DNA from: a virus | Direction: 5' to 3' (one strand) | Length of the DNA stretch: 64,000 nucleotides | Virus record (IMG/VR): IMGVR_UViG_3300022891_000002 | Span: 62,001 to 126,000 of that record | Part shown: one piece after another, positions 3-54,240 of the stretch | How the letters are laid out: each line of letters starts with the position of its first letter | Numbering within the stretch: position 1 is the stretch's first letter | Made by a program: the position numbers and the translations under genes | Notes under the pieces: model-generated | Databases searched by the model: none | What the model was told of the DNA's origin: nothing | The model's input: only the letters and a program-made list of their open reading frames with translations

Positions 3-3000
3 TTAGTAGCTCTTAAAGAGATTGGAGTAGAAACTGAAAAAGCTCTTACAGCAGATTCAATTGATTTCAATAAGTTTGAAGAGAACTTGGGAATGTATGT
101 TGAATCTTTAAATGCAGTTGCAGAAAGTGGAGAAGCTACAAGTGAAGAAATAGCTAAGAAGTTTGAGAATGTCTACAACCAAATGAAAGGTAGAGTTACT
201 CCGGCTGCCTACAAAGATTTAACTGAGACTCTAATTGGTTATGAAAAAGCGGCTTCGGAACAACGAATCAGCTATATTGGAATGGAAACTTCTGCTCTTG
301 AACAACAGAAGAAATATGGATTCTTACTAGAAACAGATTATATAGAGCAAATTAATAAACTCAATATTCAAACTTCTGAAGAAAATATTAAGAATAAGAA
401 AATAGAACTAGCTAGGTTACTTACTTTATACAAAGAATCAGCTCCTCAAGTAGTTAAAGCTAAAGCAGAATTAGAAGCTCTCGAACTGAATCTTTCAAGT
501 CAAAAGTCCAATAATCCCGTAGAAATTGCTAAAGCTCAAAGCAAAGAAAGATTTGATACTTTAAAGAAAGAACTTGAACTAGGAACTATAACTAGGAGAC
601 AGTTTATTGAAGAAGAACTCAAAGATTCTAGAACTCTTTATGAAACTCAGCTAGTAGAAAAACAAAAAACTCTTACGGAATTACTAAAAGATGAAGTTAA
701 AAATGCTAAAGCTATCAAAGCTCTTCGTAAATCTATGGAGTCAGATGAGCAAGACTTTAACTTAAATCTATTAGAAATTAACAGAAGGAGAATAGAAGAA
801 CAATTTAAGCTACAAACTAATGCTTTAGGTAAGAGAGAGCTTGAAGCTAGAAAAGACGCTCTTAACGGAAATACTAAAGAGGAACTTGAATCTGTCCGTA
901 AATTAGAAACAGATAAGATTGCTCTAAACATTCAGACTTTAGAAGCTAGGTTAGCAGTAGAAAAACAAGGAAGTGAGAAGTTCTTAGAAATAGAGAAACA
1001 GTTATCAGAAGCTCGACTATCTTTACAAGAAACTCAAGTTAAACAATCTAAAGATAGAACTAATGAAGAGATTGAGAGAAAGAAAAGTGAGTTAAACACT
1101 ATAGCTGCTCTTGAAGAACGCAACAATATTCGTGGTACTAGCAATAAAAGTCTTGAGAATACTCGTCAACTAAGAGAGAAAGAAGTTCAGTTATCTATTG
1201 ATTCTATTAACTCCCAAATTGCTCTGACTGAAAAAGGAAGTAAGGAAAGGTTAGCTCTTGAACAACAGTTAGTTCTCGAAGTTAATAAGTTACAGAAGAC
1301 TCAATTTGATAACCAGAAAGAAAGACTAGAACAATCCTTAGAAGATAGACGTAAAAAGTTAGAAGCTAAACAAATGGATTTAGAGAAGAATTCTATTAAA
1401 GGTACTACTGATGAAGATATTGAAGCTAGCAGAAAGTTAAAAGAAGAGGAAATCAATTCTACTATTGAAACTCTTAAGCAAAGGTCAGCTCTGTATCGTG
1501 AAGGTAGCAAAGAGAGAGTTGCTCTTGAACAAGAAATAGCTAAAGAAACTCTTAGGTTAGATAAGCAAGTCTATGAAAATCAAAAGTCTAGATTACAGAC
1601 TCAAATAGATAACAAGAAGAAAGCTTTTAAGGATAGTCAACTAGCTCTAGAAAAACTTTTGGTACTTGGAACCTCTACTGAAGATTCTAAGAAAGTTCGT
1701 GCATCTAAAGAGCAAGAAATTCAACTGACTATTGAAGGTATTAAACAAGAAATTAACTTAACTAAAGCGGGTTCTACTCAAAGAAAAGACTTAGAACGTA
1801 GCTTAAGAGAAGAGTTACTTAAGTTAGATAAACAAAGAATAGCAAATAAGAGAGATTTAATCGATGAAGAGATATCTTTAGAAAAAACTAAGATTACTAA
1901 AATCCAGTCTCTACTTGAACGTTCTACTATTGGCGGAACTTTTGAGAAAGATTTAGAAAAGATAAGAGAACTTAAAGTCAAGGAAACTCAAATTGTAATT
2001 CAATCTATTCAGAAGCAATTAGCAACTTACAAGTTAGGTAGCAAAGAGAGATTAAATTTAGAAGCAGCTTTAACTCAAGAGATTACTAAGTTACAAAAGA
2101 TTCAGTTTGGTAACAAGAAAGAGAAGCTAGAATCCCAACTTGAAGATGCAAAAAATAAATTAGATAAGCAGATTGCATTAAAAGAAGCTGCTCTAGTAGA
2201 TGGTGCAACTGAAAACGAACTTAAGATAGTAGAAGCTGCAAAAATAAAAGAGACACAGCTTACTATTGACTCTCTTAAAAAGCAGATAAATCTTTATAAA
2301 GTTGGTAGTAAAGAACGTCTTGCATTAGAAGTAAATCTACAAAAAGAAATCAACAATCTTAGGAAACAAACTTTAGATAAAGAAAAGAATTTAATTCAAA
2401 CTAATTTAGAGTTCAAGAAAACTCGAATTGATTTGGACAATATTGAGCAAGAGAAGAAACTTCTGAGAGGAGATACGGATAGAGAAAGTTTTGAAGATAA
2501 GTTAACTGCTTCATCTCAAAGAGTAAATCTATTACAACAAGATGCGTTTACCAAACAACTTAAACTCTATCAAAAAGGAAGTAGAGAATATTTAGATATT
2601 TTGAAAAATCTTTCCCAGCTTCAAGTAGATTACCAAAAGTCAGTAGTAGACAAAGCTATTCGTGATATTGACAGAATTACTAAAGCTCAGAACAACTCAA
2701 TAGAAGCTCAGAAAATATTTATTACTCGTCAACTTAGTTCTAGTGATAACTTAACTAAGGAACTTCAAGAGCAAATTAAACTTGAGGATTCTCGAAGTTC
2801 AGTAGTTAAAGCTACAGCGGACTATCAAGTTGGTTTATTAGAACTAGCTAAAAGGTCAACTGGAGATGTAGAGAAAAGAGCTAAAATTGATGTTCAAATA
2901 GCTGAATTAAAACAAAAGTCTCTATTAGAAGCTCAAGAGTTAGAAATTAATTCTATTAAGAACAACGCAATTATTAATGAAGCTGCCTTGGAAAGAGAAC

Positions 3001-4823
3001 GAATCCAAATCAGCCTTAATAGATTAGAGCTTGATAGAAGTAAGTTACAGACTGAAGCAGAACTAAGGAAAGCTAAGTTAAATAAGTTAGATTCAGCAGC
3101 AATAGAAGCTCTCCAGTTACAGCTAGACTCTATTAATGACCAATATGACGCTCTTGGTAGAAGTGAAAATCTTATTTCTACTCAAATTGCTAATCAAGCT
3201 GAAATTAGTCAAAATCAAATTAGAGTCATTAAGCAACAGCAAGATTTAGCTCAAAAGAATAGTGCGTTAGACGTTGAACAAGCTAAACAAGGTCTTATCA
3301 TTGCAGGTTACGAGAAACAGCTCTCACAACTTAAGATGAAAGGAACGTTAATAGAAGCCAATGCAAATAAAGAAAAAGTTATTGGTGACTTGCTAACTAA
3401 AGCTTACGACACTCAGATTGCTCTATTAAATAGTAGAAAGGAATTAATGGACTCTACTCTTGGCTCTATTGATACTTTGTACGGAATTGAGCAGTCAATG
3501 GCTAAATCTGACTTAACTAAAGACAAGTTAGCTAGAGAACAGGCTAAAGATAAACTGACTTTCCTAGAACTTCAACAAAGAATGGAGAATGAAAGTTTTA
3601 ATCTAGAAAAAGCTAAGAATAAGATTGTAAGAGAGAGACAAAAAGTAGAGCTAACTATTGCAGAAATTAATGCTAAACAAGCTCTTGCAATGTCCAAAGC
3701 AGAAGAAGCTAGAACTAACGCTAGAAAAGATGCTACTGATGAAGAGAAATTAGCATCTCGATTAGCCGTTGAATCTGCGGAACAAGGAATTTTAGCAGCT
3801 AAAGCAAATAAGGAACTAGCTATTGAAGTATCTAAAATAGAAGAACAATCCGAGAAGAATAAAGAACTAATTAATGCTCGGAACCAAAGAAATCAAAGAC
3901 TACAAGCAGAAATGGCAGTTGCACAAACTACTACTAATACCGCTGATGATAGTCAAGTAAGAGGCAAAGCTCAGAGATTCAGAGAGTTAGATGAAAGAAG
4001 TATAGGAGATAATAATTTAACTTCTAATACTCAATCACAAGTAGAGAAGATACTTAAAGAATTTAGTGAGTCTATGAGGTCACGTAAGCCGATTGAGGAA
4101 ATATCTACTACTAACCTTACTAACCCTCTAAGTACAGATACTCAGCCCAAGAATAATATCTCACCTACTAACATCCTAGGTATTGGTGGACTAGGTAGAG
4201 GTGTTACAACAAGTTCAGGTACTAATAGAGATAATGATAAGACTAAGAAAGATAGTAAGGACAGTACAGCTAGTTCTATATCTAATTTAAGTAAGTCTAT
4301 TGATAAAGCAGAGAAGTCTATTACTAAAAAATTAGGATTAGATACTCAATCACTTATAAAGACTTTCAACATTAATAGTAAGACACTTAATAAACTAATA
4401 GAGGTAAGTGTAAAGAACATAGGTAAGAATATTACTACTGCTACTAATACTATTACTGGCACAACCCTTAAAGGTAATAAAGTAATTAAACCACCTAAGC
4501 CAAAGAAAGGACAAATCGTACCTGACTCACTTAGAACTATTAGAGAAGCTATTACTAACTTTAAGTTGTCAGTAGACAAGTCTAATGTAGCTAAAAAGAA
4601 AGAAGCTGATATTAGATATAAAGAAGAACAGAAAGATAATGATAAGTTACAGAAGTCAATTGAACAACTAATAGATAAGATTGAGGAACATATTGAGAAA
4701 GGTGGTAACGTAAACATTACTTCTCCTATATCTGTCACTGGTGGAGGAGATAAGAACACAGGTATAGAGATTAACAAGCACTTATTTGGATTAGCTGAGA
4801 AGATTAGAAGGAGGCAAAACTAA
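3..4823 (+). CDS. Tail tape measure-like coiled-coil protein (5' end outside window)
   Basis: The frame is open from base 3, so the gene starts left of the window; at least 1,606 residues are visible. Nearly all of it is charged K/E/Q/L-rich coiled coil with no enzyme motif. A G-S-(K/x)-E-R-L-x-L-E anchor recurs at bases 969, 1236, 1503, 1770, 2037, 2304 and 2577, i.e. every 89 codons (91 for the last step), marking tandem degenerate repeats. The last ~280 residues are Ser/Thr/Asn-rich and less helical. Size, repeats and position just before tail genes fit a tape measure protein that sets tail length and spans the tail tube. The N-terminal part, where membrane segments or a TMP domain would help, is not visible, so another large coiled-coil virion protein remains possible. 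Its stop overlaps the next start by one base (TAATG). Confidence 0.75.
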   Translation, partial: LVALKEIGVETEKALTADSIDFNKFEENLGMYVESLNAVAESGEATSEEIAKKFENVYNQMKGRVTPAAYKDLTETLIGYEKAASEQRISYIGMETSALEQQKKYGFLLETDYIEQINKLNIQTSEENIKNKKIELARLLTLYKESAPQVVKAKAELEALELNLSSQKSNNPVEIAKAQSKERFDTLKKELELGTITRRQFIEEELKDSRTLYETQLVEKQKTLTELLKDEVKNAKAIKALRKSMESDEQDFNLNLLEINRRRIEEQFKLQTNALGKRELEARKDALNGNTKEELESVRKLETDKIALNIQTLEARLAVEKQGSEKFLEIEKQLSEARLSLQETQVKQSKDRTNEEIERKKSELNTIAALEERNNIRGTSNKSLENTRQLREKEVQLSIDSINSQIALTEKGSKERLALEQQLVLEVNKLQKTQFDNQKERLEQSLEDRRKKLEAKQMDLEKNSIKGTTDEDIEASRKLKEEEINSTIETLKQRSALYREGSKERVALEQEIAKETLRLDKQVYENQKSRLQTQIDNKKKAFKDSQLALEKLLVLGTSTEDSKKVRASKEQEIQLTIEGIKQEINLTKAGSTQRKDLERSLREELLKLDKQRIANKRDLIDEEISLEKTKITKIQSLLERSTIGGTFEKDLEKIRELKVKETQIVIQSIQKQLATYKLGSKERLNLEAALTQEITKLQKIQFGNKKEKLESQLEDAKNKLDKQIALKEAALVDGATENELKIVEAAKIKETQLTIDSLKKQINLYKVGSKERLALEVNLQKEINNLRKQTLDKEKNLIQTNLEFKKTRIDLDNIEQEKKLLRGDTDRESFEDKLTASSQRVNLLQQDAFTKQLKLYQKGSREYLDILKNLSQLQVDYQKSVVDKAIRDIDRITKAQNNSIEAQKIFITRQLSSSDNLTKELQEQIKLEDSRSSVVKATADYQVGLLELAKRSTGDVEKRAKIDVQIAELKQKSLLEAQELEINSIKNNAIINEAALERERIQISLNRLELDRSKLQTEAELRKAKLNKLDSAAIEALQLQLDSINDQYDALGRSENLISTQIANQAEISQNQIRVIKQQQDLAQKNSALDVEQAKQGLIIAGYEKQLSQLKMKGTLIEANANKEKVIGDLLTKAYDTQIALLNSRKELMDSTLGSIDTLYGIEQSMAKSDLTKDKLAREQAKDKLTFLELQQRMENESFNLEKAKNKIVRERQKVELTIAEINAKQALAMSKAEEARTNARKDATDEEKLASRLAVESAEQGILAAKANKELAIEVSKIEEQSEKNKELINARNQRNQRLQAEMAVAQTTTNTADDSQVRGKAQRFRELDERSIGDNNLTSNTQSQVEKILKEFSESMRSRKPIEEISTTNLTNPLSTDTQPKNNISPTNILGIGGLGRGVTTSSGTNRDNDKTKKDSKDSTASSISNLSKSIDKAEKSITKKLGLDTQSLIKTFNINSKTLNKLIEVSVKNIGKNITTATNTITGTTLKGNKVIKPPKPKKGQIVPDSLRTIREAITNFKLSVDKSNVAKKKEADIRYKEEQKDNDKLQKSIEQLIDKIEEHIEKGGNVNITSPISVTGGGDKNTGIEINKHLFGLAEKIRRRQN

Positions 4824-8716: not shown

Positions 8717-11407
8717 ATGTCTCCTAAGTCACCTTTAAACAGTATAATTACTTCTACTAATCAATTACCTCCTGAACAAGTAACTAAACTAGCTACAAGT
8801 CCAGGTACATTTCTCTTCAACCCTGTTACTCAGAAAGTTCTTCTCTGTTGTAAGGTAAATACTAAGATTACTCAAGACCCATTACCTCTTAAGATACTTA
8901 AAAATAAAGAGATATTCATAAGTAATCAAATTGAACTACCTGACTTCATAGTAGAACATAAGTTAGTTGGTGGCTTTACCATTAGTAGAAGTTTTGAGAG
9001 TCATCCAACTATATCTTTCAAACTAATGTGTAGTAGAGATGAGATAGATGAGGTACGTGAGAAGTTTAGAGATAGATTTGATATTAAGTATATCTTCTAT
9101 GGAATTCCCTTTAGACTGACTAACTATTCAGAAGTTATTGGGGAAAGAGTTGTCTATCCAGAAGGACATTACGATATAGACTTATCCTTTACAGGTTGGT
9201 ATGAGAAGTTAATCAATCAACCTTTGTTTGTTAAAAATAGAGGTACAAGTAACACAACTAATAAACCTTTTGAAGCTCCTGAATGTAGATTAGATGGAAA
9301 TAGTAAAGCAAATAGTGAGCTGGCTAACTCACTCAACAAACCAGATGAATTAGTAGTACCTCTTAGTTCTTATGCAAGTAGGTTAGGTTTTAGTTACTTA
9401 GGTTATGACTTCTTATGTAACTATCAGAAACCTGTATCTCCTGACCTAACTACTACTTTTGCTAGTGAGTTAGATAGTAGAAAGAGAACTAAAGGTCTTT
9501 ATGTACTTTACTCATCTGATGAAGGTATTAAAACTATTAGTTGGGCAACACCTTCTAAATTTAAGGTAAGAGAAGATAGAATAGTTCCTCCTGTTAGTTA
9601 TTCAGATAATATGAGTGAGTTAGGATATAAACCTTCTGAACTCTCATGGAATAAGTCAGATGAAGAACCTTTAGATACTAATGAAGAAGATACTTATCAG
9701 AATACTATTCCTCAATGGCTACAACTAAATATTAGAGTAAAAAAATCTATTAGTGACCCGGATAATGCAAGTTCACCTCCTAACGAGGAAGGATTACTTA
9801 AGACAGTTGACCTTAACTATGATGCTTCAGGAAAGATAAAAGTTAAGACTACTACTAAGAGAGAAGGCACAACTATCATTTGGGAGAAGATAGAGACTTG
9901 GGGATTCATGTACTTATCTAAGGATATTGTTATCACTAGAGACGGAGAAAGTATATTAGAAGCTTCTCCTAGTAACTATTGGGGACTAACTGAATCTCAA
10001 GAAACTACTTACATATTTGATTCCGCTACTGGCTACTACTTAGGTAACTCAATAACCGGATGGAAAATGTGTAGATATAAGCAGGAGTCTTCTACTGAAA
10101 CAGCTAAGTTAGAACAAGAGAAACAAGCAATAGCCGACCCATTAAGTAAACTCTTTGAATCAGATGAAGTAGTTAGAGGTGAAAAGTTATATGAGTTAAA
10201 CCAAGTAATAGATTGTTATAGATTTAGAGCTATTCCGATTAGTGGGGGAACTCAGTTTATACTACGCCAAAATAGAGACTACTACCAAGACGCTAATAAC
10301 TCATCTCCTAACATTCCTTATCAAGTTTGTACTAATGATGGAAAGTTAATTACTAAATATATGCGTGACCCGACTTGGGTAGAACCAATGTATGTAGGAG
10401 AAGAATACACTTTCTACTCTTGTTACTCTAGAACAGAAGACCCAGCAAACTTAGCACTTAGAAGAGAATTTAGAGACTCACCCCCTGAAACTGTTACTGA
10501 TAATCCTATTTATAATCCACCTTTAACTACTGGTAGAGAGATGGAGATATATAAAAAAGTCTTTATTCATAGAAGTAAATCTACTATTCAAGAGGAAGGA
10601 TTAGGTTTTACTTCTACTGGTTCATCAGTTAAAGATAATTTTATAGGAGATGGTAAAGATGGAATAGAAGAGAAATACGAGACTCACATTACTGAACGTT
10701 CGGCTCAAGATAGTAACTTTAGAAATGCTTCTACTAACATCCGAATAGAAGATGGAAGTGGTAGACCTCCAGAAGCGACAAGGAAACAACTACCTTTTGT
10801 ACCTAAAACTGAGGAGAGCTTAAAGGAGAACTCAGATGTTTACTACACAATGACCGAAACTAAACGTAAAGATGCCGTACAATCGCAACCTAAAGATACT
10901 TACAGACATCTATTAATTACTCAAGGTTATAACGTTAATGACCCAATACAAGGTTCTGTCTCTTACAATACTAAACACAAATCCGAAGCATTCTTAGGTG
11001 CAATTACTGATTTAGAGATAGATGATATGAATAATAATTGTTCTATTTCTTTAACTACTCTATTTAGACCTGAAATGATAGAAGGTAGTAAAGTTACTTT
11101 TAACTATTCTTGGGATGCTTGGAAGTGTCGAATTATAAGTAATAGTAGTAGTGTAAATATTGTAGGTTATCAAGAACTAGAAGATGGTACATTACTTACT
11201 CAGGTTACTGGTTCTACTTCTCTTAGTTTAGGTATAGATAGTAGTTTGGGTAGCTTAACCTCATTAACTAAAGTCAAACTACCTAGAGAAAACGTTGAAC
11301 CTATCAAGACTAACAATCCTAATGAAGCATATATATTTGATATGTACACAAGAGGAAAAGAGTTAGGTAAGATAGCTTATGGGTTTGGAAGTAGATATTC
11401 AGGATAG
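8717..11407 (+). CDS. Putative tail hub or baseplate protein, 896 aa
   Basis: Large beta-rich + strand protein in the tail module. The first ~170 residues (ending around YDIDLSFTGWYEKL) look like a compact domain of the type found in tail-hub or distal-tail proteins; the middle is Ser/Thr/Pro-rich with low-complexity linkers, and the C-terminal ~100 residues return to ordered strands ending AYGFGSRYSG. I see no lysozyme, peptidase or pyocin-knob motif. Role inferred from size, composition and position after the tape measure and before the fibre genes. Its 3' end overlaps the convergent gene at 11377 by 31 bases. Confidence 0.5.
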   Translation: MSPKSPLNSIITSTNQLPPEQVTKLATSPGTFLFNPVTQKVLLCCKVNTKITQDPLPLKILKNKEIFISNQIELPDFIVEHKLVGGFTISRSFESHPTISFKLMCSRDEIDEVREKFRDRFDIKYIFYGIPFRLTNYSEVIGERVVYPEGHYDIDLSFTGWYEKLINQPLFVKNRGTSNTTNKPFEAPECRLDGNSKANSELANSLNKPDELVVPLSSYASRLGFSYLGYDFLCNYQKPVSPDLTTTFASELDSRKRTKGLYVLYSSDEGIKTISWATPSKFKVREDRIVPPVSYSDNMSELGYKPSELSWNKSDEEPLDTNEEDTYQNTIPQWLQLNIRVKKSISDPDNASSPPNEEGLLKTVDLNYDASGKIKVKTTTKREGTTIIWEKIETWGFMYLSKDIVITRDGESILEASPSNYWGLTESQETTYIFDSATGYYLGNSITGWKMCRYKQESSTETAKLEQEKQAIADPLSKLFESDEVVRGEKLYELNQVIDCYRFRAIPISGGTQFILRQNRDYYQDANNSSPNIPYQVCTNDGKLITKYMRDPTWVEPMYVGEEYTFYSCYSRTEDPANLALRREFRDSPPETVTDNPIYNPPLTTGREMEIYKKVFIHRSKSTIQEEGLGFTSTGSSVKDNFIGDGKDGIEEKYETHITERSAQDSNFRNASTNIRIEDGSGRPPEATRKQLPFVPKTEESLKENSDVYYTMTETKRKDAVQSQPKDTYRHLLITQGYNVNDPIQGSVSYNTKHKSEAFLGAITDLEIDDMNNNCSISLTTLFRPEMIEGSKVTFNYSWDAWKCRIISNSSSVNIVGYQELEDGTLLTQVTGSTSLSLGIDSSLGSLTSLTKVKLPRENVEPIKTNNPNEAYIFDMYTRGKELGKIAYGFGSRYSG

Positions 11408-12416: not shown

Positions 12417-12953
12417 CTATTTAACCTCTACTGTTTTATCTGTTTTCTTGATTAACTGTCTAAAGTCGTGAGGAAATATAATATCTTTACTGTTCCAAAA
12501 TCCTAACTTAGCTCTGTTACTTAAAGCCGTTTGTTTAATAATGTTTAGTAGAATATCTAACTCTCTGTCGCTATACTCATATCTTTCAGTAGGCAAATAG
12601 TAACTAACAGCCATTCCTAGCTTACATAGCTCTACTTGAATATTAGTTTTTAGAGATACTTTCTCGACGTAACAATCCACTATCCATCTACCATAAATAT
12701 CTAGAAGTACAGGAATGATTATTATAGGTTTGTTGGCTAGTAAGTTGATAAGAGCAGTTTTAGCTAAATCCCCATAACTCCAATGTTCTAATATTTTAGG
12801 TTCTGTACTATTCTGGAATTTCTTCCTGACTTCAGGGGCATCTATCCACTGCAATCTAGCTTTAAAAGTCTCTCCTTCAAAGTTTAGTTCTAAAGTATCT
12901 CCATCTAATACAGATACTAAGTTACATTTATGTTGATTTCCTGGTTTTAGCAT
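12417..12953 (-). CDS. Thermonuclease (SNase)-family nuclease
   Basis: 178 residues matching the staphylococcal nuclease fold: VLDGDT at residues 15-20, ARLQWIDAPE at 32-41 and YGRW at 87-90. The three catalytic positions of the family (Arg33, Glu41, Arg89 here) and metal-binding Asp residues (17/19 and 38) are all present, so a Ca2+-dependent DNase/RNase is expected. There is no signal peptide, so it probably acts inside the infected cell, for example in host DNA degradation or nucleotide recycling. It sits two bases from the frameshift-linked gene pair. Confidence 0.88.
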   Translation of the reverse strand: MLKPGNQHKCNLVSVLDGDTLELNFEGETFKARLQWIDAPEVRKKFQNSTEPKILEHWSYGDLAKTALINLLANKPIIIIPVLLDIYGRWIVDCYVEKVSLKTNIQVELCKLGMAVSYYLPTERYEYSDRELDILLNIIKQTALSNRAKLGFWNSKDIIFPHDFRQLIKKTDKTVEVK

Positions 12954-12954
12954 T

Positions 12955-13662
12955 TTAAGGTATCAATCCATTTATTCTCATTAACTGTCTCATTAAGAAC
13001 TGAGCTTTTCTATCTGTAATTCCTGCTCGACTAAGCCCAATATTAATTTCTCCTGGTGCGCCTAAAAATGTATCTCGTAAATCTCTACTATTAGTAGCAA
13101 AATCTTTAGCTTTTTGAGTAGCATCTTTAATCTCAGGCTCCATTACTCTTGCTACTCTTTTAGCTAATTCTCTTCTACTTAATTTTCTATAATCAACTCC
13201 TTCTTTAGTCATTAATTCGTCAAAGTTATCGTGAATCCTGCTTAACCTCTCAGAGTAACCTTTTGGATTAGTAGATTGTAGATTACCTGACCTAACCTCA
13301 TTTAATAAAGTTCTTATAATCTTGGGTTTAACTACACGAGCATAAATAAGTTGTTCTGTACCTCTAGACAGCCCTCTTGCAGTAACTCTAATTGCACCTC
13401 TTCTACCAGATATAGCTTGAAGTGCTTTTTCCCACTCTTCAGCTTTTACTTGAATTCCTAACTTCTCTGCTTCTGGGTCTTTAGCTACTTTGTTTATCTG
13501 TGCGATAGCATTACCCATCAAACTCTTTCTTTCTGTTACTGAAGCAATAGCCAGCTCTTGTATTTTTTCTCTATCTTGAATAGCAGCTTTAGTTCTATCT
13601 ATTAGTAGAAGGTTACGTCTAGAAGGAGAAGGTACGATATCATCTAGTTTTTTTTTACGGTT
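12955..13662 (-). CDS. Downstream frame of a probable -1 frameshifted gene
   Basis: The frame is open from 13662 to the stop at 12955, about 47 codons further upstream than its first candidate starts (TTG at 13521, ATG at 13518). The upstream part reads as ordinary protein (LDDIVPSPSRRN, then AAIQDREKIQELAIASVTER) and overlaps the end of the 13644-14351 frame at a run of nine A residues (13648-13656 on this strand). The simplest reading is that ribosomes slip -1 there, joining both frames into about 465 residues. Helical, basic, with no recognised domain. Internal initiation at 13518 is an alternative, with only a weak purine-rich site before it. Confidence 0.6.
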   Translation of the reverse strand, partial: NRKKKLDDIVPSPSRRNLLLIDRTKAAIQDREKIQELAIASVTERKSLMGNAIAQINKVAKDPEAEKLGIQVKAEEWEKALQAISGRRGAIRVTARGLSRGTEQLIYARVVKPKIIRTLLNEVRSGNLQSTNPKGYSERLSRIHDNFDELMTKEGVDYRKLSRRELAKRVARVMEPEIKDATQKAKDFATNSRDLRDTFLGAPGEINIGLSRAGITDRKAQFLMRQLMRINGLIP

Positions 13663-14351
13663 TCATCTGAAATAGCTTTCTCTCTCTTGAGTCTATCTTT
13701 TACTTTTCTAGTTGCTTTATCTAATTTACCTTCTGAATTATCTACTAACCTGACAATAGAGGTTCTCTCTGGAGGTCTACCTAAACTTCCTTTCTTAGCT
13801 GGAGCTAATAGGGCTTTTTCAACTTGTAATATAGTCTGCATTTCTACTGGAAGAGATTGGTATGCTTTTTGTGCGTTACTTACTTGAATCACTTTATCCT
13901 CTGCATTTCTAGTTTTTCTTTGTGGTTTTTGTAATAAACTTCTTTCTTGTGGTTTTTTAGCAGGAGTTAGTAACTTGTTTCCTTCAGACTTCTTAGTAAC
14001 TAACTGACTCTCCTTTTGTATTTTAGTTAATATAGGAGTTTCCCAAGGGTCACTTATTAAGTTTTGAGATTTCTTACCTTGAGTTAATAGTTTAGTGTCT
14101 GGAACTTTAGTAGATTTTACATTAACTACCATATCACTAGCTTTCTTACCAAATGAAGGTAACTTAAGACCTTTCTTTTTAGCTAGTAACCCTGCTCCTA
14201 CTAATAAACCTGCCCCTCCTACTGCCAAAGCTATTTTCTTACTTCTGTTCTCATCTTTCTTACGGAAGAAGTCATCTACTCGTATTACTTTAAATCCACT
14301 CTTTCCTTTACTTACTCGGTTATGTCCTTTTACTCTATTCTTTCCAAACAT
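13644..14351 (-). CDS. Basic protein with one membrane-like segment; 0-frame of frameshift pair
   Basis: 235 residues, Lys/Arg-rich, with one Gly/Ala/Leu-rich hydrophobic stretch (IALAVGGAGLLVGAGLLA, about residues 41-58) followed by KKK, which could span a membrane. The remainder is basic, Pro/Ser-rich and probably disordered. It ends V-K-K-N-stop exactly where the A9 run lies, and the -1 frame continues open for about 230 codons. Function unknown; a virion-internal or membrane-associated protein would fit the composition. Confidence 0.65.
   Translation of the reverse strand: MFGKNRVKGHNRVSKGKSGFKVIRVDDFFRKKDENRSKKIALAVGGAGLLVGAGLLAKKKGLKLPSFGKKASDMVVNVKSTKVPDTKLLTQGKKSQNLISDPWETPILTKIQKESQLVTKKSEGNKLLTPAKKPQERSLLQKPQRKTRNAEDKVIQVSNAQKAYQSLPVEMQTILQVEKALLAPAKKGSLGRPPERTSIVRLVDNSEGKLDKATRKVKDRLKREKAISDETVKKN
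13648..13656 (-). promoter_or_regulatory. A9 homopolymer, candidate -1 frameshift site
   Basis: On the minus strand GTA is followed by AAA AAA AAC TAG in the zero frame. Slipping back one base on the A run gives AAA CTA GAT GAT and bypasses the TAG at 13644. Homopolymer A runs are well-known slippery sites. A sequencing or natural indel in the run would look the same. Confidence 0.5.
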
Positions 14352-14389: not shown

Positions 14390-14542
14390 ATGGAAGAACA
14401 ATTAATAAGTAAGATACTTGAGATATTAAAGAAAGATAAGATAACTATTAAAGGTAACGTTCTAACTATTGGAGGTAAAGAGATTAAGCTATCTAAAGGT
14501 GGAAGTCAGAAGATTACTACTAGAATTACTCAACTAAGATAG
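14390..14542 (+). CDS. Small protein, 50 aa, start of fibre operon
   Basis: ATG at 14390, TAG at 14542, eight bases before the next ATG; its stop overlaps the AGGAG ribosome site of that gene. The chain is a short amphipathic helix (EQLISKILEILKKDK) followed by beta-prone, Gly/Lys-rich sequence ending KITTRITQLR. Probably cotranscribed with the fibre gene. Function unknown. Confidence 0.65.
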   Translation: MEEQLISKILEILKKDKITIKGNVLTIGGKEIKLSKGGSQKITTRITQLR

Positions 14543-14550
14543 GAGATATC

Positions 14551-17055
14551 ATGGCAGTTACTTATGCAAATAGTAGAATAGTTCTTCCCAGTAGTTGTTG
14601 GTCAATTGTTCCTTCTACTGGTGGTTCCCTATCTGCTACTAATCTCTACTTCTCACTTCAGACAGAAAATAGAATAGGTAGAAACTTACAATTAGTATCC
14701 TCTTTAGTAAGTATAGCTACTAACAACAAAGTAACTATAACGATTAACTCTCAAGCCAAATTACCAACTGAGGAGATATTTAGTTATGTAATTGGGGTTT
14801 CTACTTCTTCTGTTCCAAATACGTTTAGTCAAATAGCTAAAATTCCAGTAACATCATCTACTACTTTTCCATTAGTTTTAGTTATCAGTCGAGATATATT
14901 CTTAAAAACTGGTTATATAACGTCAGATAATCCTAGCGATACTCCTTCTGCGGATTTACTTCATGGAATGCGAATTGGGTATAACGGAACTGGATTAGTT
15001 TATGAATATGACAGTTTAGATTCAACTTCAGCAGTAGATAATCAAGAAACTCTTTTAGCAAGCACTGGTAAGCGATTTAAGGCTAGAGGAGGTTTCTCCA
15101 CTTATATATCCTCAGTTTATGACGTAGACGGTTCTAGGCTCGATTTAAGAGAAGAAAATGATATCAATCCTATTCTTAATAGTTACGGGGCAGATGGAGG
15201 AGATTCTGGCTTTATTAGGCTATGGGTTGACAATGCTAGTGGAAGTGTAGCAGTTGGAACTAGAATTACTCTAACTGTTAAACTAAATGAAAACGTAAAG
15301 ACTAACTTATTTGATAGGAAGATTCGCTATATATTTGAAGGAATAGTAGATTTAAATACTTGTGTTCTTAGGAATACTTTAAGAGATGGAATTACACCTT
15401 TTGAGAAGCTAGGTATTCCATTAGTCTTTAACTCTAATAACCCTAACTTTGCGTTAGAAGAAGATTTACTAATTGGGGAAGCTTTATCTTTTAGTTTCTA
15501 TTTAAATTTTTTAGGAGCAGAACTCAATGACTTTATCCCAGAAGGTTCTATTATTTCTATTTACCCTTCTTTTGTTTCTAATATAGGTAGCTATGTAGCA
15601 GGAGGAGAGATAATAGGTGACTGTATCTTTAGTGAAGGTGGTAGACGTAGAGTATTGCCTTCTACTACTAATACAGGTCTTGAAGTGATGTCCGGTAGTG
15701 GACTAATTAAGAACTATACTTTTCCTCTATTACCTAAAACTACTATCTTAGGATTAATACCTAATACTGCTAATCAAAAAGTTTTTATCAATAACTTAGG
15801 TAACTGCTTTTTAGCTCCTACTAACCTACCTAACTCATCTGCTATTAGAGCTATTGTATCTACTACTTCTGGTCAGACCTCTGTTACTAGCTGGAGTAGT
15901 TATGTACCTATTACTCAAAATAGTAACTTTACACTTACCTTAACTTTACCTACCTTAGTCAGAAGTAATTATCCAGATGTAATTGCTAATAATTCTACTA
16001 CTTTCATTATTGGTAAATATGTAATATATGTACAAAAACAGTCTAACTCTGAGGTGAGAAGATTTGAAGTAAACTATAACAGTAATACTTCTAACAACAC
16101 TTTCTCTATCAACTTACTAGATTGGAATAGTGGAGTAGTTGTAAGTAGTGTACCTTCTACGACTAACTTAAGTAATGAGTTTAATCTATATGACTTACCT
16201 TATTTTGTTATTAGTAGTGGATTAGGAAGTGGATTTAGTATAGGTAGTTATAGATTTAGTATTGCTTATGCCTACGATGGAAATCAAGTAACGTCTATTA
16301 GTCATGATATTGCTAAAGGATGTATAGTAGAGCTTGATATGCCCTTATCTCAGGCACTTAATAATATGAAGTACCTAGGTGAGCCTTTATTTAAGGAACA
16401 ACTAACATTACTAGATACTACTTATATACCTGACGGACAAAGAAGGTCGTTAAAAGGAACTAATAATGAGTATCTAGACTTAATATTTTATAAGTATCAG
16501 ACTGGAGCAGGAGATAATGTTACTAGCTTTAAACCCGGAACTTTACCTTCTAGCTCTCCTGGTATTTGGAAAGAAAAAGAAAGTGGTCTTAATCTAGACC
16601 AAGTAAGTGCTTATGTTTACTCTACTATCTTTCCTAATATCTCTACTTTAAATTCCTATATTAAATCAGTAGACGAAAGTATGATTCCTCTTATATTAGC
16701 TTTAGGAGGTGGAGGAAACAGTAGTAATCAAGGAACATCTATTAGCAGTGGAAATACCGGAAGTAGTAGCTTATCTCCTTTAGTAGTTAGTGGTAGTTCT
16801 ATTAATCCAGATATTAATGTAGCGACTAATTATGTCTTTAATACAACTGGAACAATTAGTAATATAAATAACCCAACTAATATTATGGACGGAGGTAGAT
16901 TTAATATACAGACTAATAATACTGGAATATACAACTTTGGCAATCAGTATAAGTTAGCTGAGAATTATACCAGTGTGTTCTTAGAAGGTAGAGCAGACAT
17001 TAGAGCAGTTGACCGTGGTACACTTGTAGATATAATGATTTTTAGTACGTGGTGA
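14551..17055 (+). CDS. Putative tail fibre or baseplate-associated protein, 834 aa
   Basis: Ser/Thr/Asn/Gly-rich, strongly beta-prone protein with AGGAG six bases before the ATG. No enzymatic motif. The last ~130 residues, after a glycine/serine linker (LALGGGGNSSNQ), look like a separate module ending DIRAVDRGTLVDIMIFSTW, as expected for a receptor-binding or trimerising tip. Starts the + strand fibre cluster 14551-20251. Assigned by composition and place only. Confidence 0.55.
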   Translation: MAVTYANSRIVLPSSCWSIVPSTGGSLSATNLYFSLQTENRIGRNLQLVSSLVSIATNNKVTITINSQAKLPTEEIFSYVIGVSTSSVPNTFSQIAKIPVTSSTTFPLVLVISRDIFLKTGYITSDNPSDTPSADLLHGMRIGYNGTGLVYEYDSLDSTSAVDNQETLLASTGKRFKARGGFSTYISSVYDVDGSRLDLREENDINPILNSYGADGGDSGFIRLWVDNASGSVAVGTRITLTVKLNENVKTNLFDRKIRYIFEGIVDLNTCVLRNTLRDGITPFEKLGIPLVFNSNNPNFALEEDLLIGEALSFSFYLNFLGAELNDFIPEGSIISIYPSFVSNIGSYVAGGEIIGDCIFSEGGRRRVLPSTTNTGLEVMSGSGLIKNYTFPLLPKTTILGLIPNTANQKVFINNLGNCFLAPTNLPNSSAIRAIVSTTSGQTSVTSWSSYVPITQNSNFTLTLTLPTLVRSNYPDVIANNSTTFIIGKYVIYVQKQSNSEVRRFEVNYNSNTSNNTFSINLLDWNSGVVVSSVPSTTNLSNEFNLYDLPYFVISSGLGSGFSIGSYRFSIAYAYDGNQVTSISHDIAKGCIVELDMPLSQALNNMKYLGEPLFKEQLTLLDTTYIPDGQRRSLKGTNNEYLDLIFYKYQTGAGDNVTSFKPGTLPSSSPGIWKEKESGLNLDQVSAYVYSTIFPNISTLNSYIKSVDESMIPLILALGGGGNSSNQGTSISSGNTGSSSLSPLVVSGSSINPDINVATNYVFNTTGTISNINNPTNIMDGGRFNIQTNNTGIYNFGNQYKLAENYTSVFLEGRADIRAVDRGTLVDIMIFSTW

Positions 17056-52863: not shown

Positions 52864-54240
52864 TTATTCAGCACAAGAAGTACATAACCCATCAAGGTTA
52901 CACGACTCTACAGCAGTTGAAATATTATCCTCTGTGATTACACGACTCTTATCTAGAAAATCTTGCTCAATAGGTAAACGATAGTAAGTAGTTTTAAGTG
53001 GAGATGCCAACCAATCTGCAATGAAATCTTTATCTACTGTACAAGTGTTCCAAATGTTGAAACTAATCGCATGAGCCAAACCTGTTCTATCCATCATACT
53101 TTGCCATGCTTTCATCAATCGATATTGAACATCCCAACCAACCTCTCTTGCTGTTTCACCTTTAGGGTTATGTTCATAATTTGTAACTCCAAAAGTACCG
53201 CTATCCCGGTCAACTATATTGTTAATTGGAGGGCTAATTTCTGGAGCAGTAGTAAACATCTCTCTGTCACGGTTACGATAAGCCACAGAGGCAGTAGGAG
53301 CAATTGTAAAAGCACGTTGCATCCCATGTTTACACGCTACAATCTTAGCTTTATCAAACCCCTCTAATAAAGCATCTACAATAGCAACAGCATTAGATGA
53401 TAGGGAAGTAGATGAATTTTCAATATTGTATACTCTATTTTCTAACGCATCTACAAACTCTGAATATTTAACTTCTTCAATAGCGAGCAAATTAGCTAAT
53501 CCTAACACTCCTAAACCCACTTGCTTATCCTCGTTAGGTGATAAATATAATCCTTGTTTATCCACACCAGTTTGAGGATGTAACTCACATAGAAATTTCA
53601 TTCCATCTTCAAAAGCCTGGGCAATTTCATCAATCTTACACTTACCTAAATTAGTGTGGGAAAGTAGGCAAGAAGCTCTAGACGAAATTATTATTTCCAT
53701 GCACACGTTAGAGTAGAGACGATTACCGTCTTTATCCCATTGTTTCTTAGCTAACCATACTGACCCGTCTCTAACTTTCTGAATAATAAGGTCAATATGA
53801 GGTGATTCTAATAAATTTTCATCTACATACAGAGATTTCTTAGCCCAAGGTAAATCTTTAGGAGTAGCATTTAAAAAATCAACTAGGTCACTGTGATTGT
53901 AATCGAGATATACAACAACAGCCCCATTCTTATAGATACCTCCACGTCTTAGAATCTCGTTGAGTTGGCTATAGATTTGAGCAAAACTAACTGCACCACT
54001 CGCAACCAAACCTTTGCTATTAGTCGTACCTTTTGAACGTATATTAGACAAGTTAATTGCCACACCAGCACCATATCTTAGAGCGCCACTGGTAAATAAC
54101 CAACTTTGTTCAATCCCGTCTTTCCCTTCCATACTATCTTGCACATCAAACACGGTACAGGATACTGGAAGCCTGCCATCTGGGTTTTTCATCCAATCAG
54201 ATACGCGACCTGTAACAGCAATATTTTTAGGTTTTTTCAT
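52864..54240 (-). CDS. nrdA: Ribonucleotide reductase large subunit, short class I-like form
   Basis: 458 residues, much shorter than bacterial NrdA (~700-850), like compact RNRs of some cyanophages. Present: PVSC (Cys28) and SRASC (Cys191), the active-site redox pair; N-V-C-M-E (Asn178, Cys180, Glu182), the catalytic N-C-E triad; GAGVAINLSNIR and GGIYKNGAVVVYL barrel strands; FTIAPTASVAYRNR, the phosphate-binding loop; and a C-terminal CTSC pair for reduction. No ATP cone is present, so allosteric activity control is probably lost. It reduces ribonucleotides to deoxynucleotides together with the 52108 subunit. Confidence 0.85.
   Translation of the reverse strand: MKKPKNIAVTGRVSDWMKNPDGRLPVSCTVFDVQDSMEGKDGIEQSWLFTSGALRYGAGVAINLSNIRSKGTTNSKGLVASGAVSFAQIYSQLNEILRRGGIYKNGAVVVYLDYNHSDLVDFLNATPKDLPWAKKSLYVDENLLESPHIDLIIQKVRDGSVWLAKKQWDKDGNRLYSNVCMEIIISSRASCLLSHTNLGKCKIDEIAQAFEDGMKFLCELHPQTGVDKQGLYLSPNEDKQVGLGVLGLANLLAIEEVKYSEFVDALENRVYNIENSSTSLSSNAVAIVDALLEGFDKAKIVACKHGMQRAFTIAPTASVAYRNRDREMFTTAPEISPPINNIVDRDSGTFGVTNYEHNPKGETAREVGWDVQYRLMKAWQSMMDRTGLAHAISFNIWNTCTVDKDFIADWLASPLKTTYYRLPIEQDFLDKSRVITEDNISTAVESCNLDGLCTSCAE

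Follow-up and report, generated by a model that had tools for sequence, protein, structure and literature searches.

In many bacterial genomes, selection against slippage becomes apparent at a tract length of nine A residues. Avoidance of A and T runs has been ascribed to polymerase slippage on 9A/9T (PMC1088944). In Thermus thermophilus dnaX, transcriptional slippage on such an A9 run gives rise to tau and gamma (PMC1088944). Transcriptional frameshifting on A11 in Citrobacter rodentium tssM1 yields two protein lengths, both of which are needed, as is their ratio (PMC4256274), and at Shigella spa13/spa32 the slip affects the translation of the downstream gene (PMC5009743). In a proven IS case, slippage on A_AAA_AAC occurs without an established stimulator (PMC4066793). 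Within the SEA-PHAGES set, 2397 of the 2476 joined genes are tail-assembly chaperones (PMC10885494).

Here we describe a phage gene whose coding sequence passes from one reading frame to another at nine consecutive A residues (A9). We estimate a probability of just under 0.6 that this one gene yields two products with a common N-terminus through putative transcriptional slippage on the run.

Genomic setting and layout of the gene

The stretch of DNA analysed, referred to as the window, comprises bases 62001-126000 (64 kb) of a 150-kb virus record. This tailed phage has its nearest named relatives, judged from two genes, among phages of filamentous cyanobacteria at ~22-25% amino acid identity; the Nodularia phages (genus Ravarandavirus) are closest, followed by Planktothrix PaV-LD and Aphanizomenon CL131. 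Two long plus-strand tail-region genes (8717-11407 and 14551-17055) flank the A9 gene, which is transcribed in the opposite direction to them. The homologue of 8717-11407 in Nodularia phage 2AV2 is 2AV2_43, which is directly followed by 2AV2_42, with no gene between them. A 50-aa ORF lies on the plus strand between the divergent genes of the window (14390-14542), and a similar small ORF is found in the same position in all four relatives described below. Elsewhere in the window, at 52864-54240, a ribonucleotide-reductase-like protein measures only 458 aa and matches stretches of several RNR families.

The A9 gene is neither directly upstream of nor co-directional with the tape-measure gene, in agreement with an earlier sequence-only reading that had set it apart from tail-assembly chaperones. 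For the tail-assembly chaperone G/GT of this phage, the probable pair lies upstream of the window at L027:10320-11128 (genome 56320-57128), where two overlapping ORFs with a -1 offset (L027:10320-10823 and 10754-11128) lie just upstream of the tape-measure start.

On the minus strand, the junction of the A9 gene reads GAT GAA ACC GTA AAA AAA AAC TAG ATG, with the zero-frame TAG stop immediately after the AAC codon (Table 1). Reading this strand confirms what the sequence-only reading had reported, namely a frame that ends in V-K-K-N-stop at the run. From 13656, the -1 frame continues for 233 codons without a stop, ~46 of which precede its first Met, close to the roughly 230 and 47 codons given earlier; the downstream ORF as called covers 12955-13521. 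Joined, the two frames would encode about 465 aa. The long form has the junction sequence ...DETVKKKLDDIVPSPSR, and the short form the C-terminus ...VKKN. Computed translation of window transcripts returns the long protein for 10, 7 or 13 A residues and a product of 235-237 aa for 8, 9, 11 or 12. The earlier expectation that either 8 or 10 A residues would restore a single frame therefore holds for 10 (and also for 7) but fails for 8, which stops after 236 aa.

Table 1. Features of the A9 locus in window coordinates
Feature	Position	Strand	Remarks
SNase-like nuclease gene	12417..12953	-	PF00565; its start is 1 nt beyond the predicted long product's stop
-1 frame, C-terminal part of the predicted long product	12955..13656	-	continuous with ORF1 in L011
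~46 codons of the -1 frame before the first Met	13518..13656	-	purifying selection, window/L002
Zero-frame ORF, predicted short product, 235 aa, Lys-rich	13644..14351	-	homologous ORF1 in L002, L003 and L004
A9, putative slip-site	13648..13656	-	in-frame A_AAA_AAA and A_AAA_AAC; A9 in the same gene in 5/5 genomes

Features of the encoded protein

The protein starts with the conserved N-terminal motif VKGHNRxxKGKxGFKVxxVxDFFRKK, followed by a hydrophobic segment and a linker rich in Lys; the C-terminal half is conserved and is predicted, with low confidence, to be helical. The hydrophobic segment, previously described as membrane-like, is found in all five copies (residues 40-58 in the window; KD19 1.8-2.2). 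Pfam and PHROG searches matched neither half; CRA and phrog_13284 were rejected as the family, with scores below any useful level. A PDB profile search with the protein likewise gave no match. AlphaFold pLDDT values were 45 for the full ORF of L011, a relative described below, and 44 for the C-terminal half, and a BFVD fold search produced no match at E <= 0.001; we thus make no claim about the fold. A virion or membrane-associated role would be a guess.

A series of proteins with glycine-rich hydrophobic segments, several of which start with MRKI[IT]F, is encoded in L027:439-5516 (genome 46-51.5 kb). Encoded upstream of the tail genes, the L027 protein at 2563-3804 terminates in KVKGFSRKNKSGKWSNVKSFIRDKIKK, which resembles the N-terminal motif of the A9 gene; 12 of 2000 shuffles were as good.

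Conservation in related phages

Scanning 2.9 million IMG/VR contigs yielded four relatives (L002, L003, L004 and L011). Queries with the two flanking genes brought up no further phages, so that five genomes are known and all of them carry the gene. The earlier statement that the pair has no known match stands for named phages, to which tblastn gave no match, but not for these four uncultivated relatives. A search of genome contigs matched neither the A9 gene nor the neighbouring tail gene.

The gene is split in the window, L002, L003 and L004, at about 72% amino acid identity, and the net -1 offset is identical in these four copies. At the homologous place, L002 carries GTAAAAAAAAACTAG (248 aa, or 476 aa after the shift) and L003 carries GTAAAAAAAAAGTAG (234 aa, or 464 aa shifted). 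In L004, the original run is lost and the place is read through in frame (ESDILLDDIVP). Here, GCTAAAAAAAAACAATAA lies ~105 codons upstream of the homologous place, giving 228 or 565 aa, and A9 is the sole feature that the moved site shares with the original one. L011 contains both halves in a single 548-aa ORF and keeps A9 at the homologous place (TTAAAAAAAAACAAG) though no shift is needed. Computed slippage at this run leads to a stop within a few codons (325-327 aa), and a slip at a second A9 further upstream would give 113-115 aa. The tract is exactly nine residues long in all five genomes; none has 8 or 10.

Between the run and the downstream Met (near 13518), the codons evolve as protein-coding sequence in the -1 frame, with a dN of 0.14 and a dS of 1.66 between the window and L002 (dN/dS about 0.09), and 0.11 and 0.61 respectively between L003 and L004 (dN/dS 0.19). 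In shifted control frames over the same bases, the purifying pattern disappears. Such selection on codons ahead of the Met points to translation by read-in from upstream, and bears out the earlier view that ordinary coding sequence precedes the first downstream start. Together with the single ORF of L011, it shows that the two frames form one gene encoding one protein, the full-length product of which is needed. Likewise, the -1 shift at A9 to a ~465-residue protein, as first proposed, gains support from the four relatives, one of which has an uninterrupted ORF. The comparative evidence marks this as a genuine frame-slip gene that has been conserved.

The long-form stop of the window, L002, L003 and L004 lies only a few bases from the start of the next gene, and the slip may therefore also affect translation of that gene. 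It is an SNase in the window and L002 but a member of other families in L003 and in L004; directly at the SNase-homologous place of L011, no gene was identified.

Rarity of long A-runs

Apart from A9, neither strand of the 64-kb window contains an A or T homopolymer of at least nine residues. The other window ORFs contain no A>=9 run, compared with 3.8 expected from synonymous-codon shuffling (a count of zero arose in 0.3% of shuffles), and L027 contains one, with 4.5 expected from codon shuffling; this depletion test covered phage genes, and the loci of the relatives are each too small to decide. In these genes, A>=9 is thus under-represented in coding regions, one of the criteria used for functional transcriptional-slippage genes (PMC1088944). 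Across the five genomes (643 kb), nine A>=9 runs occur, six of them within this gene. The remaining three comprise one harmless in-frame run and two intergenic ones.

Shuffling the gene's own codons produces A>=9 in 70% of trials for the window and in 55-97% across the gene copies. Since a Lys-rich protein favours A-runs, A9 is not improbable by itself. What appears to exceed chance is the conservation of A9 together with the conserved frame offset in the relatives.

In the other ORFs of these phages, runs of A and T are avoided in all codon phases, with A7/A8+ runs avoided most in the slippery phase (phase 2). In-frame A_AAA_AAC is depleted in the window ORFs and L027-L031 (2 observed, 13.4 expected), and A_AAA_AAT is depleted less (23 observed, 29 expected). 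The depletion of A_AAA_AAC may reflect ribosomal slipping in the host.

Mechanism of slippage

We strongly infer that slippage occurs at A9. On the nine-A template, standard decoding would meet the stop right after the run and give the short 235-aa protein. Realignment of RNA polymerase on the T9 template would add one A to the mRNA, bringing the C-terminal frame into register and giving the ~465-aa protein. The long form would add the conserved, mostly helical C-terminal half, so that the slip would set the ratio of short to long form. Searches of the phages, of which the first had a control without signal, turned up neither a T7-like nor a multisubunit RNA polymerase gene, and for this reason the slipping enzyme is presumed to be that of the host.

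At about two to one, we infer that the slipping machine is RNA polymerase rather than the ribosome. This is favoured by the full A9 in all five copies, by the relocated L004 site, by the retention of A9 in L011 without need of a shift, as in Thermus dnaX, by the rarity of A>=9 outside this gene, by the fact that both A and T runs are avoided whatever the codon phase, by the tract length of nine, which Thermus dnaX also uses, and by the lack of both a conserved RNA structure and a shared Shine-Dalgarno. For RNA structure downstream of A9, the five genomes gave z values of -0.02, -2.8, 0.2, -0.5 and 0.36, with a stable hairpin in L002 alone; no 3' structure and, by eye, no 5' Shine-Dalgarno-like element was common to all sites.

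Programmed -1 ribosomal frameshifting, in which tandem tRNAs would slip and leave the mRNA unchanged, is a close though less likely rival. Each break has a proper in-frame X_XXY_YYZ heptamer at the overlap (A_AAA_AAC in the window and L002, A_AAA_AAG in L003, A_AAA_AAA in L004), and the stop lies directly 3' of it in the window, L002 and L003. However, A7 would suffice for such a heptamer, whereas a full A9 is present in five of five genomes and is all that the moved L004 site has in common with the others. The depletion of A_AAA_AAC in other phage ORFs and the strongest avoidance of A-runs in phase 2 would suit a slipping ribosome, but every codon phase and T-runs are likewise avoided. The L002 hairpin is a candidate stimulator without a counterpart common to the sites; given the unstimulated cases on record (PMC4066793), this point is not absolute. 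Polymerase and ribosomal slippage could also act together. The -1 slippage originally read from the sequence thus stands as a net shift, with slippage by RNA polymerase at least as likely as by the ribosome.

It is very improbable that A9 is a DNA contingency tract that switches the gene by changes in tract length within the phage population. Homopolymers are hypermutable, and L011 could be taken as 'on' and the four other genomes as 'off', but the tract is constant at nine in all five, and flanking indels rather than tract length separate the two states. Even less credible is a second, separate protein translated from the Met near 13518. This Met is conserved in five of five genomes; it is internal to the single ORF of L011, however, follows ~46 codons that are themselves conserved as protein, and has no conserved ribosome-binding site before it in the aligned sequences. 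Hardly any weight falls on a broken gene, in which a recent mutation would have inactivated the gene by splitting it and left the C-terminal frame, which has no obvious start site of its own, as a relic: the split is common to four genomes at ~72% amino acid identity, dN/dS is low on either side of the ATG, and L004 retains the offset at a relocated break. Sequencing or assembly error, to which homopolymers are prone, is negligible, as exactly nine A residues occur at the break in four separately named contigs, one break sits elsewhere (L004), and none of the other A8-A11 runs in these genomes interrupts a gene. Decay and error alike are made unlikely by the retention of the split and A9 in the relatives, by selection, and by the rarity of A>=9 elsewhere.

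Comparison with known systems

Returning to transcriptional slippage, we tentatively suggest, at somewhat below an even chance, that a dsDNA phage family has maintained a nine-A site of transcriptional slippage in a gene other than the chaperone, giving two protein lengths in a set ratio. The site would have moved in L004 and the default been swapped in L011, with the two-product output kept. The family is a natural experiment, with the same site, a moved site and an inverted default, and polymerase and ribosomal slippage can thus be told apart. Gene callers will list such slip genes as two unrelated ORFs.

Frame-slip genes are already known as a kind, and most annotated phage frameshift genes are tail-assembly chaperones; here, a conserved frame-slip is found in another, unnamed phage gene outside that usual setting. 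Like the G/GT pair of the tail-assembly chaperones, the A9 gene is a phage gene with a -1 offset extension. Unlike that pair, it lies in another place and on the other strand than the tail genes. A poly-A frame break is also described for the Campylobacter phage methyltransferase CPt10_0091, with transcriptional slippage suggested to give the full-length product; the passage concerned presents a suggestion from a single genome and cites no conserved split in relatives (PMC2853527).

As in Shigella mxiE and spa13 (PMC1088944, PMC5009743), the product would be extended at its C-terminus and a downstream gene lies at or near its end. The genes are unrelated, however, and mxiE slips on a U run. 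The likeness to tssM1 (PMC4256274) lies in a zero-frame stop just past the poly-A run and in an inserted A that restores the C-terminal domain. Whereas tssM1 has A11, encodes a T6SS membrane protein and is proven by experiment, the present case involves A9 in a phage gene and comparative evidence.

The proteins of Thermus dnaX and the A9 gene are unrelated, and slippage in the latter is proposed from sequence comparison. The two systems nevertheless share a run of nine A residues, a short and a long product, predicted in the case of the A9 gene, that begin with the same N-terminus, and nearby stops in the other frames (PMC1088944). Unlike in dnaX, the default in the window, L002, L003 and L004 would be the short form, and the slip would produce the long one. 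L011 follows the same logic as Thermus dnaX, with the long form as the default.
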